Shown one piece after another: positions 23,860 to 30,095 of a stretch of DNA of 38,436 nucleotides. The stretch is from the NCBI GenBank assembly GCA_017859785.1, contig JAFMMJ010000014.1:1-38436 (forward strand), read 5' to 3'. A model generated the notes under the pieces. It was not told the DNA's origin. It ran no database searches and saw only the letters and a list, made by a program, of their open reading frames with translations. This stretch comes from Ilumatobacteraceae bacterium. GTDB lineage: Bacteria; Actinomycetota; Acidimicrobiia; Acidimicrobiales; Ilumatobacteraceae. A program made the translations under genes and the position numbers. Numbering within the stretch: the stretch's first letter is position 1; each line of letters begins with the position of its first letter.

Positions 23860-25185
23860 GTGCGGTTCGGCACCGATGGCCTGAGAGGCCGATACGGGTC
23901 GGAACTGACCGAGGACGTCGCCACTCGACTCGGAGTGGCCGTCGCAGAAGTGTTGGCGGTCGACTCATTCGTCGTAGGCGGCGACAGCCGGGAATCCACG
24001 CCGTCGCTTGAGCGCGCCCTCGTAGCCGGTCTCAGCAGTCGCGGTGCTCAGGTCGAGCGACTCGGACTCGCCCCGACCCCGCTCGTCGCTCATCGAGCCG
24101 CTCGAACCGGCGGAGCGGCCCTCGTGGTGTCGGCCTCGCATAACCCGTTCCACGACAACGGCATCAAGGTCTTCGGTCCCGGTGGGGCGAAACTCGACCC
24201 GTCGAGCGAGACGGCGATCGAGTCGCTTCTCGATCGAGCCGCATCGATCACGCCCGTTCCGGACCCTCCGGAGGGCCCGGAGGCGTCCGTGGTGCGCGAC
24301 TACGTCGATCATCTCCGTTCGATCATCGGTGGTCGCTCCCTCGCCGGACCGCGCGTCGTCGTCGACGCGGCCAACGGCGCTGCCTCTCGACTCGCGGGCG
24401 ACGCTCTATCGGCCCTCGGAGCCGACGTGGAGGTCATCGAGAACCGCCCCGACGGTCGCAACATCAACGCCGGTTGCGGGGCGACGCATCCAGGGTCGCT
24501 CGCTGAGCAGGTGCTGGCGCGAGAAGCCGATCTCGGCTTCGCCCTCGACGGGGACGCCGACCGCGTGATCGCCGTCGACGGAGCGGGCCGGGTGCTCGAT
24601 GGGGATCACATCATGGCGATGCTCGCGATCGACCTGCGCGCGAGAGGCGCGCTCTCTGGGGACACCCTCGTTGTGACCGTCATGTCGAACCTCGGCCTTC
24701 GTCAGGCGATGGAGGCCAGCGGGATCTCCATCGTCGAGACGCCGGTGGGCGACCGCCATGTCGCTGAGGCGCTGCGGGCCGGCGACTATTCGCTTGGCGG
24801 TGAGCAGTCGGGGCACATCATCCTGGCCGACCACGCTCCGTCGGGCGACGGTCTCGCCACCGCCTCCGCTGTCCTTGATCTTGTCGCTCGCTCCGGCCGC
24901 TCACTCGCCGAACTCGGCAGTGAGGCGATGACCGCTCTTCCTCAGACGCTCGTCAATGTCGAGGTTGACCCCGCCGGCCCACCGGCGGCCGCGCTCGTGG
25001 CTGAGACCGCCGAGTCGATCTCCGAGGTCGAGCGGCAACTCGCTGGCACCGGTCGAGTGCTCGTTCGCCCGAGCGGCACCGAACCTTTGGTTCGGGTGAT
25101 GGTGGAGGCTCCAACCGCCGAGCTCGCGGAGAGCGCCGCCCGCGCCATCGCTGAGGCGATCCGTAATCGCTCAATGGCCCGCTGA
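23860..25185 (+). CDS. glmM: Phosphoglucosamine mutase
   Basis: 441 residues from GTG, starting MRFGTDGLRGRYGSELTEDV. It converts glucosamine-6-phosphate to glucosamine-1-phosphate on the way to UDP-GlcNAc. The phosphoserine is Ser93 in SASHNPFHDNGIKVF. The metal loop is DGDADR (230-235), the sugar-binding loop GGEQSGHIIL, and the phosphate-binding loop RPSGTEPLVRVM near the C-terminus. Together with the following glmS-like gene it covers two consecutive steps of amino-sugar synthesis. Confidence 0.97.
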   Translation: MRFGTDGLRGRYGSELTEDVATRLGVAVAEVLAVDSFVVGGDSRESTPSLERALVAGLSSRGAQVERLGLAPTPLVAHRAARTGGAALVVSASHNPFHDNGIKVFGPGGAKLDPSSETAIESLLDRAASITPVPDPPEGPEASVVRDYVDHLRSIIGGRSLAGPRVVVDAANGAASRLAGDALSALGADVEVIENRPDGRNINAGCGATHPGSLAEQVLAREADLGFALDGDADRVIAVDGAGRVLDGDHIMAMLAIDLRARGALSGDTLVVTVMSNLGLRQAMEASGISIVETPVGDRHVAEALRAGDYSLGGEQSGHIILADHAPSGDGLATASAVLDLVARSGRSLAELGSEAMTALPQTLVNVEVDPAGPPAAALVAETAESISEVERQLAGTGRVLVRPSGTEPLVRVMVEAPTAELAESAARAIAEAIRNRSMAR

Positions 25186-25235
25186 CGGTTGGGAGCTGCC
25201 GGGTCGACCTGACGGCCGCCCTGAACGCCGCTCGG

Positions 25236-25241
25236 TAGGCT
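25236..25241 (+). promoter_or_regulatory. Leaderless-type -10 box of the glmS-like gene
   Basis: TAGGCT lies 7 nt before the ATG at 25249 and only 1 nt before the in-frame ATG at 25243. A transcript starting 6-8 nt after the box would begin at the second ATG, which is also the codon that places the catalytic cysteine second in the protein. Confidence 0.55.
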
Positions 25242-25248
25242 GATGTCC

Positions 25249-28200
25249 ATGTGCGGCATCGTCGGCGTGCTCGCCCGACGATGGGCTGGTGAGGTGCCAG
25301 AGGGCGCCGTGATCCTCGCTGATCTCGATCGGGCGGTTGCTGCTGCTGAGACGTTCGACATCGACCTGGTGCGCGGTTTGCTCGCTGATGTCGATCGACC
25401 GCTGCGCGCGGTCTCCGGAGTGCTCGCGGCCATCGCTGACCCCGACCTCGTGCCCTCACTATTGGAACGGCTCGACCGGCTGGAGGTGCTCGTCGATCGG
25501 GCCGAGATCGACACCGAGGTGATGGCGGCCTCTTTCGGCGACGACGAGATCGAACGGAGAGCAGCCGGGTTCGTGGGGATCAGGGATCTCTGTTGGGCCC
25601 TCCGGAACGACCGCTGCGGCCTGATCCGCTCGGTGCTCGAGCTCGCCGGGGCCGGCGCCCCGACATCCGCCGTCGAGGCGTATGTGTCGATCCAGCAGAC
25701 GCTCGGCGCCATCGACCGGCTCGAGGTGCGCGGTCGCGACTCGGCCGGTGTGCACGTGATGGTGAGTGGGCATGATCTCGACCTGCCAGCGCTCGCTGAG
25801 ACGATTCGAGCGCGATCGGTCGACCCGCTCTATCAGTCCGGCGCCGTTCGCGTCGCGGGAGATGTGCTGTCCTTCGTCTACAAGGCAGCTGCCGAGATCG
25901 GTGAGCTCGGCGACAACACTCGGGCGATCCGCGAGCAGATCCTCGCCGACGACCTGCTCCGCTCGGCGGTGTCGGCCGCGGGAGCGAGCGCGACGGTGCT
26001 CGCCCACACCCGCTGGGCCAGTGTCGGCGTCATCTCCGAGCCGAACGCCCATCCGGTCAACAGCGAGGAGCTCGAGTCGACCGGCGGTCAGCCGTACGTC
26101 GTCGCGGCGCTCAACGGCGACGTCGACAACCACGCCGATCTCCGCGTCCGCCATGGCCTCCGGATTCACGGTCAGATCACCACCGATGCGAAACCGATCC
26201 CGGCGCTCGTCTCCCGGCGGCTCGCTGAAGGTCTCGAGCCATCTGAGGCCTTCCGACGCTCGGTCAACGAGTTTGAGGGCTCGGTCGCGATCGCGGCCAC
26301 CTCCGCGACCGATGCCGGCTCGCTCCTACTTGCGTTGAGAGGCAGTGGTCAGGGGCTGTTCGTCGGGATCGCCGACGATCGCTTCATCGTCGCCTCCGAG
26401 CCGTACGGCGTGGTCGAGGAGACCGAGCGCTTCGTGCGGATGGATGGAGAGAACGGTGGCGAGGTGCTCGCCCTCGATGCCAGTCGCGCCGGCACCCTCG
26501 AAGGGATTCGGCGTTGGCGTTATGACGGGGTCGAGGCGCCGATCGGTGATGGCGAGGTCCAGATCGCCGAGGTGACCACCCGCGACATCGACCGAGGGAG
26601 CGCGCCGCACTTCCTACTGAAGGAGATCACGGAGGCACCCACTTCGCTTCGCAAGACCCTGCGCGGGCGGATCGTCCGCGACAGCGACGGAGTGGCTCGC
26701 GCCTCGCTCGGAGAAGCCTCCCTTCCGACTCGGATCCGTGAACGCCTCGCCGACGGTTCGATCCGCCGCATCCGAGTCATTGGGCAGGGCACGGCCGCTG
26801 TGGCCGGTCAGGGGGCAGCGGCCCTGCTGGAGGAACTCGGCGGCGGGACGCTCGATATCGCAGCGGTCACCGCCACCGAGGTGTCGGGTTTCCAGATGCG
26901 CGCCGATATGTCCGACACGCTGGCCATCGCCGTCAGCCAGAGCGGAACGACCACCGATACCAACCGCACGGTCGACTTGCTTCGCTCCCGCGGTGCGGCC
27001 GTGATCGGCATCGTCAATCGACGGAACAGTGATCTCGTCGACAAGTCGGACGGCATCGTCTACACCTCCGACGGACGAGACGTGGAGATGAGCGTCGCCT
27101 CGACGAAGGCCTTCTACTCCCAGATTGCCGCCGGAGCCCTGTTGGCCTGCGCGATCACCGAGGCAGCCAAGGTCGGCGACGACACCCGGCGCCATCGCCT
27201 GTTGGAGCACCTTGAGGCCCTACCGGACGCTCTGGTGCGGGTTCTCGAGCAGCGACCGGCCATCGCCGAGGCCGCCCAGCGTCTCGCCCCCGGGAAGCGT
27301 TATTGGGCCGTCGTCGGCAACGGCCCGAACCGGGTGGCGGCCAACGAGGTGCGGATCAAGCTGAGTGAGCTCTGCTACAAGTCGATCGCCTCTGACATCA
27401 CCGAGGACAAGAAGCACATCGACCTGTCCTCGGAGCCGCTGATCTTCGTGTGCGCCGCCGGGCTCGACGGGTCGACCGCTGATGATGTCGCCAAGGAGAC
27501 GGCGATCTTCAGCGCTCATAAGGCGACCGCGGTGGTGGTCGCCGATGAGGGCGAGACCCGGTTTGTGGCCCCAGCGGTCATTGGTGTTCCGAGGGTGGAC
27601 CCGAGCCTCGGGTTCGTGCTCTCCGCGATGGTTGGCCACCTCTTCGGCTACGAGGCGGCGCGCGCCATCGACGACTCGGCCCGTCCGCTCCGGCTTGCTC
27701 GCGAGGCCATCGAGCAGGCCGTTGCCGAGAGCGCCAGCGGCGACGAGGTCATCGTCCGACTGCGGACCACCCTGCCGCTCGCGCTCGCCGACTTCGAGTC
27801 CGGACTCCGGGCCGGGCGATACGACGGCCATCTGGAGGCCTCCACCGCGGTTCGTCTCACCGGCCTCGTCGCGAACCTGCTCTCCGATCGACCGGTCGAG
27901 CAGTTCAGCGCGGCGACCGGAAAGGTCGGAACCCCCGGCCTGCTCATCGACGATGTGGTGATCGCCCTCACCCGAGCGATCGAGGAACTCACCCGACCTA
28001 TCGACGCGATCAAGCATCAGGCCAAGACGGTGACCGTCGGCATTTCTCGCAGTGACGAAGAGGTGCTCGACCGGCCGCTCGTGCAAGCGGCGCTCCGCGC
28101 TGGTGCGGGCCGGGACGTGCTCGCCTACCGCACCTTGCGCGTGCTCGCGGCCCTTGATCCCGCTGTCGAGGCTGTCACCGGTTACACCCGCTACGACATC

Positions 28201-28608
28201 GACGGCGAGGCGATCTCGATCATCGACCGCGACGGCATCTCACGGGACCTCCCGAGCCGTGTCGAGGGTGAGGGTGTCCTGCGTGGCACGAAGCACCGGG
28301 TGGCCGAGAATCGCGAGGTGCTCGTGGCCCGCGGGCGTCGTGATGGTCGCATTGTGATCCTCGTTCCCGAAGTGAAGGGGAGTACCTGCACTGGCATCAC
28401 GCTGCTGCACGTCGCCCTCCGAGACCGTCTCGACCCGAGCGCCGCCCGAGGCGTGCTGCAGGGTTACGACCAGCGTTTCGACCGCCTTGTCGACTGGGTC
28501 ACCGAGACCGAGGGCTCGTTCGATGAGTCGGTTCTCGCGCGGATCGATGTCGCCGACCTCCTCATCTCACCCATTTCCGAAACCGCTGACCACTGGATCA
28601 CCGGCTGA
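25249..28608 (+). CDS. glmS: Very large GlmS-like glutamine amidotransferase/isomerase with extra domains
   Basis: 1,119 residues from ATG 25249, against about 600 for ordinary GlmS, which makes glucosamine-6-phosphate from fructose-6-phosphate and glutamine. ATG 25249 gives MCGIVGVL, so the cysteine becomes the N-terminal nucleophile; ATG 25243 would add Met-Ser. In MSM-numbering (add 2) the amidotransferase part has RGRDSAG (163-169), HTRWAS (255-260), LNGDVDN (290-296) and TTDAK (313-317). SIS domain 1 has SQSGTT (565-570) and VASTKAF (618-624). SIS domain 2 holds Glu709 and His725, 16 residues apart as in E. coli GlmS Glu488/His504. QAKTVTV with Lys928 resembles the terminal AKSVTV of GlmS. 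About 135 extra residues follow the N-terminal CGIVGV, more precede Lys928, and about 190 follow it. GlmS function is inferred from these residues and from adjacent glmM. Confidence 0.8.
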   Translation: MCGIVGVLARRWAGEVPEGAVILADLDRAVAAAETFDIDLVRGLLADVDRPLRAVSGVLAAIADPDLVPSLLERLDRLEVLVDRAEIDTEVMAASFGDDEIERRAAGFVGIRDLCWALRNDRCGLIRSVLELAGAGAPTSAVEAYVSIQQTLGAIDRLEVRGRDSAGVHVMVSGHDLDLPALAETIRARSVDPLYQSGAVRVAGDVLSFVYKAAAEIGELGDNTRAIREQILADDLLRSAVSAAGASATVLAHTRWASVGVISEPNAHPVNSEELESTGGQPYVVAALNGDVDNHADLRVRHGLRIHGQITTDAKPIPALVSRRLAEGLEPSEAFRRSVNEFEGSVAIAATSATDAGSLLLALRGSGQGLFVGIADDRFIVASEPYGVVEETERFVRMDGENGGEVLALDASRAGTLEGIRRWRYDGVEAPIGDGEVQIAEVTTRDIDRGSAPHFLLKEITEAPTSLRKTLRGRIVRDSDGVARASLGEASLPTRIRERLADGSIRRIRVIGQGTAAVAGQGAAALLEELGGGTLDIAAVTATEVSGFQMRADMSDTLAIAVSQSGTTTDTNRTVDLLRSRGAAVIGIVNRRNSDLVDKSDGIVYTSDGRDVEMSVASTKAFYSQIAAGALLACAITEAAKVGDDTRRHRLLEHLEALPDALVRVLEQRPAIAEAAQRLAPGKRYWAVVGNGPNRVAANEVRIKLSELCYKSIASDITEDKKHIDLSSEPLIFVCAAGLDGSTADDVAKETAIFSAHKATAVVVADEGETRFVAPAVIGVPRVDPSLGFVLSAMVGHLFGYEAARAIDDSARPLRLAREAIEQAVAESASGDEVIVRLRTTLPLALADFESGLRAGRYDGHLEASTAVRLTGLVANLLSDRPVEQFSAATGKVGTPGLLIDDVVIALTRAIEELTRPIDAIKHQAKTVTVGISRSDEEVLDRPLVQAALRAGAGRDVLAYRTLRVLAALDPAVEAVTGYTRYDIDGEAISIIDRDGISRDLPSRVEGEGVLRGTKHRVAENREVLVARGRRDGRIVILVPEVKGSTCTGITLLHVALRDRLDPSAARGVLQGYDQRFDRLVDWVTETEGSFDESVLARIDVADLLISPISETADHWITG

Positions 28609-28626: not shown

Positions 28627-28992
28627 GTGATCGGGATCGGTGTCGACGTCGTCGAGATCGAGCGGTTCCGTCGATCGCTCGAGCGCACACCCTCGATGCG
28701 CGATCGACTGTTCACCGTGGGAGAACTCGCTGCCCTCGCTGATCGCGTCGACCCGGTGCCCGGCCTGGCCGCGCGCTTCGCCGCTCGGGAGGCGACCATG
28801 AAATCGCTTGGGCTCGGGCTCGGCGCGTTCGGATTTCACGATGTGTGGGTGCGTCGTCTCGAGGGAGGCGCTCCTGAGTTGGTGGTGGAGGGTCGCGCGC
28901 TCCAGCTCGCTACCGCCGCCGGAGTCGGCCGATGGCATCTCAGCCTGTCCCATGTCGACTCGGTCGCGGTCGCTTACGTGGTGGCCGAGTGA
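28627..28992 (+). CDS. acpS: Holo-[acyl-carrier-protein] synthase
   Basis: 121 residues from GTG. It transfers 4'-phosphopantetheine from CoA to acyl carrier protein. Hallmarks are GIGVDVVEIERFRRSL with Asp7, the magnesium-binding FAAREATMKSLGLG, and the C-terminal WHLSLSHVDSVAVAYVVAE. Normal length. It starts 18 nt after the glmS-like gene, and its stop is overlapped by the alr GTG. Confidence 0.95.
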   Translation: MIGIGVDVVEIERFRRSLERTPSMRDRLFTVGELAALADRVDPVPGLAARFAAREATMKSLGLGLGAFGFHDVWVRRLEGGAPELVVEGRALQLATAAGVGRWHLSLSHVDSVAVAYVVAE

Positions 28993-30095
28993 GTCCGGAT
29001 CGGGCGGAGGTGGTCGTCGACCTCGACGCGATCGCCGAGAACGTCGCGCTCACCCTCGAGCGGGTGGCTCCGGCGCAGGTGTGGGCAGTCGTCAAGGCCG
29101 ATGCTTACGGGCATGGGGATGTCGCGGTCGCGGCCGCGGCGCTGACCGCCGGTGCATCCGGGTTGTGCGTCGCGACGGTCGAGGAGGGGGAGCGAATCCG
29201 CTCCGCCGGTATCGACGCGCCGGTGCTACTCCTCAGCCAGCAGAGTCCGCGCGTGGCTGAGCGGATCGTCGCGGCTCGGCTGACACCGACCCTCTATGCG
29301 GTTGACGCCATGGACGCTTTGGTGAGCGCCGGAGCGAAGGACCTCCCGGTCCATGTGAAGGTCGACACCGGAATGCAGCGGGTCGGGGTGCGTCCCGACG
29401 GGCTCTCCCAACTCGTCGCCGCCCTCACCGAACGCTCGCCGGCTCTGCGTCTCGAAGGGATCTACACGCATCTCGCGGTCGCCGACCGGATCGACGATCC
29501 AGGCACGAACGAGCAGTTGGAGCGATTCGAGACAGCGCTCGCCGAACTCGATCTCGACGGCGTGCTCATCCACGCGGCCAACTCCGCTGGTGCGCTCGTC
29601 CATCCGGGCTCGCGTCAAGATCTGGTGCGACTCGGGATCGCAATGTACGGGCTGTCACCCGGCGACGACCTGACGGCTGAGAAGCTCGGACTCCGGCCTG
29701 CGCTCACCCTTCGCGCCCGTGTGGGTCATGTGAAGCGGGTGGATGCTGGATCCTCGATCTCGTATGGCTGGCGGCACACCTTCGACCGCGCGACGACGGT
29801 GGCCACCGTTCCAATCGGATACGCCGACGGGGTGCCCCGCCGACTGTCCTCCCTCGGTGGTGAAGTGCTCATCGGTGGTCGTCGCCATCGGATGGTCGGC
29901 GTCGTGACGATGGACCAGTTGATGGTCGATGTCGGCGACGCGCCGGTCGCTGTCGACGACGAGGTGGTGCTCATTGGCAGTCAAGGCGGTGAGCGGATCG
30001 GGGTCGCCGAGTGGAGCGCGATGCTCGGGACCATCGACTACGAGGTGGTCTGCGGGATCTCCGCACGGGTGCCCCGCCGTAGCATCGGGGGCTAA
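28989..30095 (+). CDS. alr: Alanine racemase
   Basis: 368 residues from the GTG overlapping the acpS stop (GTGA). A PLP enzyme that makes D-alanine for peptidoglycan. The PLP lysine is Lys36 in VWAVVKADAYGHG. The opposing catalytic tyrosine is Tyr258 in SISYGWRHTF. HVKVDTGMQRVGV and VPIGYADGVPRRLS are family motifs, and a C-terminal beta domain includes MVGVVTMDQLMVDVG. In-frame sequence upstream of the GTG lies inside acpS. The tsaE ATG follows the TAA with no gap. Confidence 0.96.
   Translation: MSPDRAEVVVDLDAIAENVALTLERVAPAQVWAVVKADAYGHGDVAVAAAALTAGASGLCVATVEEGERIRSAGIDAPVLLLSQQSPRVAERIVAARLTPTLYAVDAMDALVSAGAKDLPVHVKVDTGMQRVGVRPDGLSQLVAALTERSPALRLEGIYTHLAVADRIDDPGTNEQLERFETALAELDLDGVLIHAANSAGALVHPGSRQDLVRLGIAMYGLSPGDDLTAEKLGLRPALTLRARVGHVKRVDAGSSISYGWRHTFDRATTVATVPIGYADGVPRRLSSLGGEVLIGGRRHRMVGVVTMDQLMVDVGDAPVAVDDEVVLIGSQGGERIGVAEWSAMLGTIDYEVVCGISARVPRRSIGG

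Follow-up and report, generated by a model that had tools for sequence, protein, structure and literature searches.

A lineage-wide long form of glucosamine-6-phosphate synthase with a sensor-like C-terminal domain in Acidimicrobiia

Introduction

Glucosamine-6-phosphate synthase (GlmS) governs how nitrogen enters the cell wall. The enzyme is also a drug target and a textbook example of ammonia channelling. In this study, we analyzed a stretch of 38,436 nucleotides from an Ilumatobacteraceae bacterium (contig JAFMMJ010000014.1 of assembly GCA_017859785.1, positions 1 to 38,436; hereafter the window), in which an original prediction had pointed to a GlmS-like open reading frame of almost double size with amidotransferase motifs and two SIS domains. 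The protein, which has 1,119 amino acids (aa), is a real, lineage-wide long variant of the known enzyme carrying a sensor-like domain, and it is very probably the sole GlmS of its cell. This long form replaces ordinary GlmS in about half of the class Acidimicrobiia and has been little noticed; no published description of a long GlmS was found in the open-licence literature.

Domain Anatomy of the Long-Form GlmS

The gene and the parts of its product are listed below. Residues are counted from ATG 25249, and the numbers are therefore those of the original prediction minus 2.

25249-28608, + strand: long-form GlmS, 1,119 aa, start ATG 25249, stop codon 28606-28608
25249-25275, + strand: first glutaminase strand MCGIVGV with the nucleophile Cys2 (25252-25254), residues 1-9
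25276-25662, + strand: insert 1, residues 10-138 (about 129 aa), five helices (from the alignment and DSSP of the model)
25663-26568, + strand: rest of the class II glutamine amidotransferase domain, residues 139-440
26569-27675, + strand: interdomain linker and two SIS domains, residues 441-809
27676-27999, + strand: insert 2, residues 810-917 (about 108 aa), helical, between the second SIS domain and the C-tail (from the alignment and the model)
28000-28047, + strand: internal C-tail IDAIKHQAKTVTVGIS, residues 918-933, aligning with E. coli residues 596-608
28048-28605, + strand: C-terminal domain (CTD), residues 934-1119 (186 aa), PAS/GAF-like fold in the predicted model

Insert 1 separates the Cys strand from the next helix of the glutaminase domain. 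The remainder of that domain holds the amidotransferase residues Arg161, His253-Arg255-Trp256, Asn289-Gly290 and Asp313, and the SIS part holds SQSG at 563-566, Thr568, Lys704, Glu707 and His723; the motifs RGRDSAG, HTRWAS and LNGD are all present. Lys926 (28024-28026), at the position of the Schiff-base lysine inside AKTVTV, is invariant, and the chain runs 193 residues beyond it, a free C-terminal end of the GlmS type being absent. The original prediction had GlmS ending right after this lysine; the E. coli enzyme ends five residues after it.

The sizes first given for the extra parts (about 135 aa, a segment before the lysine and about 190 aa) agree well with those listed above, but a further expansion had been missed. 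It lies within the glutaminase domain at about residues 175-245 (25771-25983), is absent from ordinary GlmS and holds a nearly invariant AEIGELGDN stretch, and it is possibly placed near the glutamine site or a domain interface.

Among Pfam families, GATase_6 was matched above its cut-off, and SIS was matched for the first copy only, the second being visible by structure. The best NCBIfam matches were two GlmS models, one at 240.8 bits (cut-off 381) and TIGR01135 at 224.9 bits (cut-off 418.05). As the TIGR01135 score is below the cut-off, the protein is not assigned to the equivalog of ordinary GlmS.

Conservation of the Catalytic Core

Twenty-two long forms were aligned with ordinary GlmS, including that of E. 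coli. In E. coli numbering, the residues C1, R26, H71, R73, W74, H86, N98, G99 and D123 of the amidotransferase part, as well as S347, Q348, S349, T352, K403, E481, K485, E488, H504, A602 and K603, were identical in 22/22 long forms. In the alignment, Glu707, His723 and Lys926 of the window's protein correspond to Glu488, His504 and Lys603 of the E. coli enzyme and are kept in all 22, which bears out both the 16-residue spacing of the first two (originally numbered Glu709 and His725) and the assignment of Lys928, now Lys926, as the tail lysine. In GlmS, the histidine of the His504 type comes from the neighboring subunit. Cys2 is invariant in 64 homologues and is present in ordinary GlmS too.

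A full-length AlphaFold2 model was built with 64 homologues and reached a mean predicted local distance difference test score (pLDDT) of 88.8 and a predicted template-modeling score (pTM) of 0.77. Human GFAT-1 and E. coli GlmS ranked first in Foldseek and VIA-align searches, with Z of about 42 over about 600 residues. The glutaminase domain aligned with 1xff over 235 of 238 residues at 1.7 Å, and the isomerase domain with GFAT1 (2v4m) over 341 residues at 2.1 Å. Several structural alignments extended to residue 932-933, which was paired with the end of the GFAT/GlmS tail. No segment of the protein is better conserved than the C-tail (0.97), but the model places it with little certainty.

The Long Form as the Very Probable Sole GlmS of the Cell

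The genome measures 1.96 Mb and is rated 98.8% complete, and the long form is its only SIS protein above the family cut-off. An ordinary glmS elsewhere in this genome had been named beforehand as part of what would count against the original prediction; searches with the protein, Pfam SIS and TIGR01135 found no second GlmS. The other TIGR01135 match of the genome is the N-terminal amidotransferase part of a 513-aa protein, which is probably PurF.

CTD presence was cross-tabulated against TIGR01135 in 296 genomes of the class with a completeness of at least 90%. The long form alone was found in 133 genomes, ordinary GlmS alone in 156, both in 1 and neither in 6 (Fisher p 9e-76, for related genomes and uncorrected for kinship). 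Seven single-contig genomes (G027, G033, G062, G162, G178, G267 and G278) carry only the long form. In the sole genome with both (G298), ordinary GlmS is just a 236-aa piece at a contig end, and in a genome of another class that has both forms (G357, locus L146), the assembly is 6.5 Mb long and rated 5% contaminated; both co-occurrences are probably contamination, the second being a rare case if it is real. Outside the class, the long form was found in a small number of genomes belonging to the same phylum, in some of them beside other neighbors.

The two forms share a gene slot as well. Ordinary GlmS directly follows rplM-rpsI-glmM in 9/10 ordinary-GlmS loci examined, with alr-tsaE-tsaB-rimI-tsaD on the other side in six of them and two others stopping at a contig edge, and this is the slot held by the long form in the window. 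The same slot together with mutual exclusion is the pattern of one enzyme replaced by another of the same function, and GlmS is needed by walled bacteria. We concluded from the exclusion and from the shared slot after glmM that the long form is very probably the cell's sole working GlmS. The claim of a functional GlmS core is thus supported by residue alignment, predicted fold, mutual exclusion and gene slot.

Divergence and Selection

Core identity was 65% among long forms, 56% among ordinary forms and 26-29% between the two. In an unrooted tree, 22 long forms lay on one side of a very long branch with 100/100 support and the ordinary forms, including that of E. coli, on the opposite side; the long forms were not monophyletic with ordinary GlmS of the same class. 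Given a core identity of 29% and this fully supported branch, the long form branches deeply, is spread across the class and did not arise by recent lengthening of a local gene. The original wording, that a GlmS core "has gained" its additional segments, was right about the presence of extra parts, but these are not a gain in this single genome; in the unrooted tree, the long form may reflect either a gain of parts or an ancient branch.

Insert 1 is the least conserved part (0.52) and the fastest-changing, with a ratio of nonsynonymous to synonymous substitution rates (dN/dS) of 0.144. The ratio was 0.053 for insert 2, 0.042 for the SIS domains and 0.035 for the tail and CTD. Purifying selection acts on all parts.

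The C-Terminal Domain and the Inserts

The CTD modeled alone gave a pLDDT of 93.4 and a pTM of 0.89. Its top Foldseek match was 3ci6_B, the GAF domain of PtsP (E 1.1e-3), and its top VIA match was residues 174-359 of 7jsr_A, the large glutamate dehydrogenase (L-GDH) of M. smegmatis, with Z 9.1 over 162/190 residues at 4.5 Å, and many GAF, PAS and CACHE domains came next at Z 5.7-7.1; Z values of such size can reflect a common arrangement only. No PDB sequence match to the CTD was found at E up to 10, and no match in a viral structure library at E <0.001. In 396 genomes of the phylum, the CTD occurred solely as fused copies, bar two marginal matches at E of about 0.002. The CTD thus has no detectable sequence relatives, and its modeled fold resembles PAS/GAF sensor domains. 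PAS-type domains are often missed by sequence (PMC8175468). Profile searches of inserts 1 and 2 against the PDB gave chance-level helical matches only.

Start Codon, Neighboring Genes and Side Observations

The reading frame is open over 25243-28608. In about 100 homologous loci, a start codon (ATG, rarely GTG) stands immediately 5' of CGI(I/V), and the residues upstream of this point show no protein-level conservation, so that ATG 25249 is most likely the real start. With this start, Cys2 becomes the N-terminal nucleophile after removal of Met; N-terminal-nucleophile amidotransferases require the nucleophile Cys as second residue. Homologues of 54-69% identity and near-full-length match were found in 80 independent loci, and a chance or assembly artefact is therefore excluded.

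The surroundings of the gene are as follows:

23860-25185, + strand: glmM (phosphoglucosamine mutase), the next pathway enzyme, directly upstream (TIGR01455, 459 bits, above cut-off)
25227-25248, + strand: TAGGCT, a -10-like box of the TANNNT type a few bases 5' of the ATG, with a putative function
28932-30095, + strand: alr (alanine racemase), downstream neighbor in the conserved slot (TIGR00492, 341.6 bits)

A box of the type TAGGCT, TAGCCT or TAACCT lies at a similar distance from the start of long glmS in most Ilumatobacteraceae homologues (loci L010-L085) and is mostly missing from homologues outside this family. Its position a few bases before the start codon suggests that the long glmS transcript is probably leaderless. 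No glmS ribozyme or other known RNA element was found in the window.

In one two-contig genome (G046:C1:1179749-1182446), long glmS appears as two open frames of 812 and 431 aa, which is either a sequencing error or a real two-gene version. Several metagenome-assembled genomes with titles that look mislabeled carry an Acidimicrobiia-like long glmS that is 56-61% identical to that of the window; they are titled Bifidobacterium breve (L049, L089), Ferrithrix thermotolerans DSM 19514 (L057, L071, L073, L097) and Acidobacteria (L078, L082).

The GlmU homologue of the genome (G000:C106:11065-12120; L157:1492-2571) is a protein of 359 aa that matches its model from position 2 to position 344 out of 452 and lacks the latter half of the acetyltransferase domain (positions 345-452). 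In the class survey, the listed genomes of the window's order have a short GlmU and those of other orders a full one. Within that order GlmU is short even where GlmS is ordinary, and a full GlmU accompanies the long GlmS in G062, G073, G078 and G083, which belong to other orders. The CTD as the missing acetyltransferase of GlmU was therefore rejected, since GlmU length is tied to the taxonomic order, whichever GlmS form is present.

Discussion

Considering the above results, we favor, as the probable reading, that the protein is the cell's only glucosamine-6-phosphate synthase, a deep-branching long form in which the CTD would bind a metabolite and signal into the tail. Catalysis is very likely that of GlmS, judging from the aligned residues and the model. 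By homology, Cys2 would hydrolyze glutamine and the ammonia would travel inside the protein, by a channel running past Trp256, to the two SIS domains, where Glu707 and Lys926, with His723 of the partner subunit, would convert fructose-6-phosphate into glucosamine-6-phosphate. This product would then be used by GlmM from the adjoining gene.

In the E. coli and human enzymes, the C-tail is the chief moving part: it links the two active sites and contributes residues to each, and in E. coli a salt bridge of the terminal Glu608 restrains it (PMC8041777). In the long form, position 608 is Gly931 and the chain continues, so that the tail would be held at both ends, anchored by the helical insert 2 on one side and by the PAS/GAF-like CTD on the other. 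In its most likely role, the CTD would bind either a metabolite that reports nitrogen status, for example glutamine or 2-oxoglutarate, or a product of the pathway, and its signal could pass into the tail and gate channel formation or sugar-ring opening; inserts 1 and 2 would most likely help to assemble the subunits or to couple the domains. That metabolite binding by the CTD gates channel formation through a doubly anchored tail is at best an even call. A signal of nitrogen status is appealing for three reasons: glutamine is consumed by GlmS, the closest structural matches of the CTD come from proteins of nitrogen metabolism, and in Salmonella EIIA-Ntr inhibits GlmS in step with nitrogen status (PMC5024086). 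Among the roles offered originally, namely regulation, channeling to GlmM and a new substrate, regulation appears to fit best, because the CTD is predicted to fold like a PAS/GAF sensor.

Several observations weigh against the favored reading. The tail region, residues 918-937, is modeled at pLDDT <50 and is the only part under 50. The PAS/GAF likeness of the CTD is one of fold only (4.5 Å over 162 residues, with no Foldseek match at E <0.001); no Pfam PAS or GAF match to the CTD was found in 31 members, and comparison of the CTD with the N-terminal region of L-GDH by hhalign gave a probability of 0.3%, with 0.1% for the reversed control. Furthermore, the long forms are uniformly changed at Y28R, H77V/I/M, H97L, C300Q, S303A, K487S, G505I and E608G, all of them positions at which ordinary GlmS varies little or not at all. 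The valine at His77 had already been pointed out, and the position is Val, Ile or Met in 22/22 long forms. With the main catalytic set kept and the changes group-wide, these positions mark the group and not decay in one genome.

The alternative that we took most seriously, although we consider it unlikely, is a working GlmS in which the added segments have a structural role alone, building or stabilizing the oligomer or docking GlmM and its neighbors without any sensing. Insert 1 is all-helical, fast-drifting (dN/dS 0.144) and scaffold-like, GlmM is encoded next door, and PAS/GAF-like folds often dimerize. However, selection on the CTD is as tight as on the catalytic domain, and the abundance of invariant polar residues in it (T, R, Y, K and E), with conserved TRY, GTK and PE residues, would suit a ligand site better than a passive interface. 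The uniform changes around the sugar site (C300Q, S303A, K487S and G505I) could instead point to the same chemistry on a shifted substrate or product, such as another ketose phosphate or amino sugar, in an enzyme that is not GlmS proper. This is improbable in a genome without another GlmS, given the near-perfect exclusion with ordinary GlmS, the adjacency of glmM and the retention of the SQSG..T phosphate loop and of the equivalents of Lys485, Glu488, His504 and Lys603.

Since the GlmU homologue ends before the second half of its acetyltransferase domain, that activity must come from elsewhere, and the CTD might be a second catalytic domain supplying it in a bifunctional enzyme. We regard this as very improbable, because the short GlmU tracks the order and not the GlmS form and the CTD model is PAS/GAF-like. 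As for a decayed or non-essential GlmS paralogue, or an assembly artefact, the score far below the curated GlmS cut-off (224.9 vs 418 bits) would be in keeping with it, but the full length is kept in 135/296 class genomes, dN/dS is far below 1 in every part, the catalytic residues are invariant and the genome has no other GlmS; its likelihood is negligible.

Tentatively, and with some doubt, a second deep GlmS branch may have replaced ordinary GlmS in about half of the class and beyond, placing amino-sugar synthesis under a built-in PAS/GAF-like domain that senses nitrogen or a metabolite and works through a tethered tail. If so, one polypeptide would do what the nitrogen-related phosphotransferase system (PTS-Ntr), small RNAs or feedback inhibition do for GlmS elsewhere. 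The long form asks whether the free end of the tail is needed for channel gating, and would offer, with its predicted sensor-like CTD, a natural case of in-enzyme regulation. In practical terms, many common marine and freshwater Acidimicrobiia genomes may seem to lack glmS in automatic annotation, because the long form scores below curated GlmS cut-offs; such annotation may file long forms under generic SIS names.

Comparison With Known Systems

Like GlmS and GFAT of known structure (E. coli GlmS, 2J6H and 1JXA; human GFAT-1, 6SVQ), the long form has the Cys amidotransferase domain, two SIS domains, the C-tail lysine and the catalytic residues, and it stands beside glmM as the sole GlmS of its genome. 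It differs in its length (1,119 vs about 609 aa), in three large extra segments and an internal C-tail, in the changes at His77, His97, Cys300, Ser303, Lys487 and Gly505 across long forms, and in the replacement of Glu608 by Gly. The SIS phosphosugar isomerases NagB-II, FraB and AgaS share the SIS fold (Z 27-35), but they have no amidotransferase domain, and both the sequence match (60 vs 225-241 bits) and the structural match are weaker.

For the CTD, the nearest parallels come from nitrogen metabolism. In the large glutamate dehydrogenase L-GDH180 of M. smegmatis (7JSR), another oversized nitrogen-metabolism enzyme with an extra domain, the PAS-type domain that is the best structural match of the CTD has been proposed as a metabolic sensor (PMC8175468). 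That domain is N-terminal, whereas the CTD is C-terminal; the long form lacks ACT domains, and there is no detectable sequence similarity between the two. The best Foldseek match of the CTD is the GAF domain of EI-Ntr (PtsP; 3CI6, 3TRC), and PTS-Ntr reports nitrogen status (PMC5024086). Here the structural match is weak, and EI-Ntr is a separate protein, whereas in the long form the sensor-like domain is part of the GlmS chain itself.

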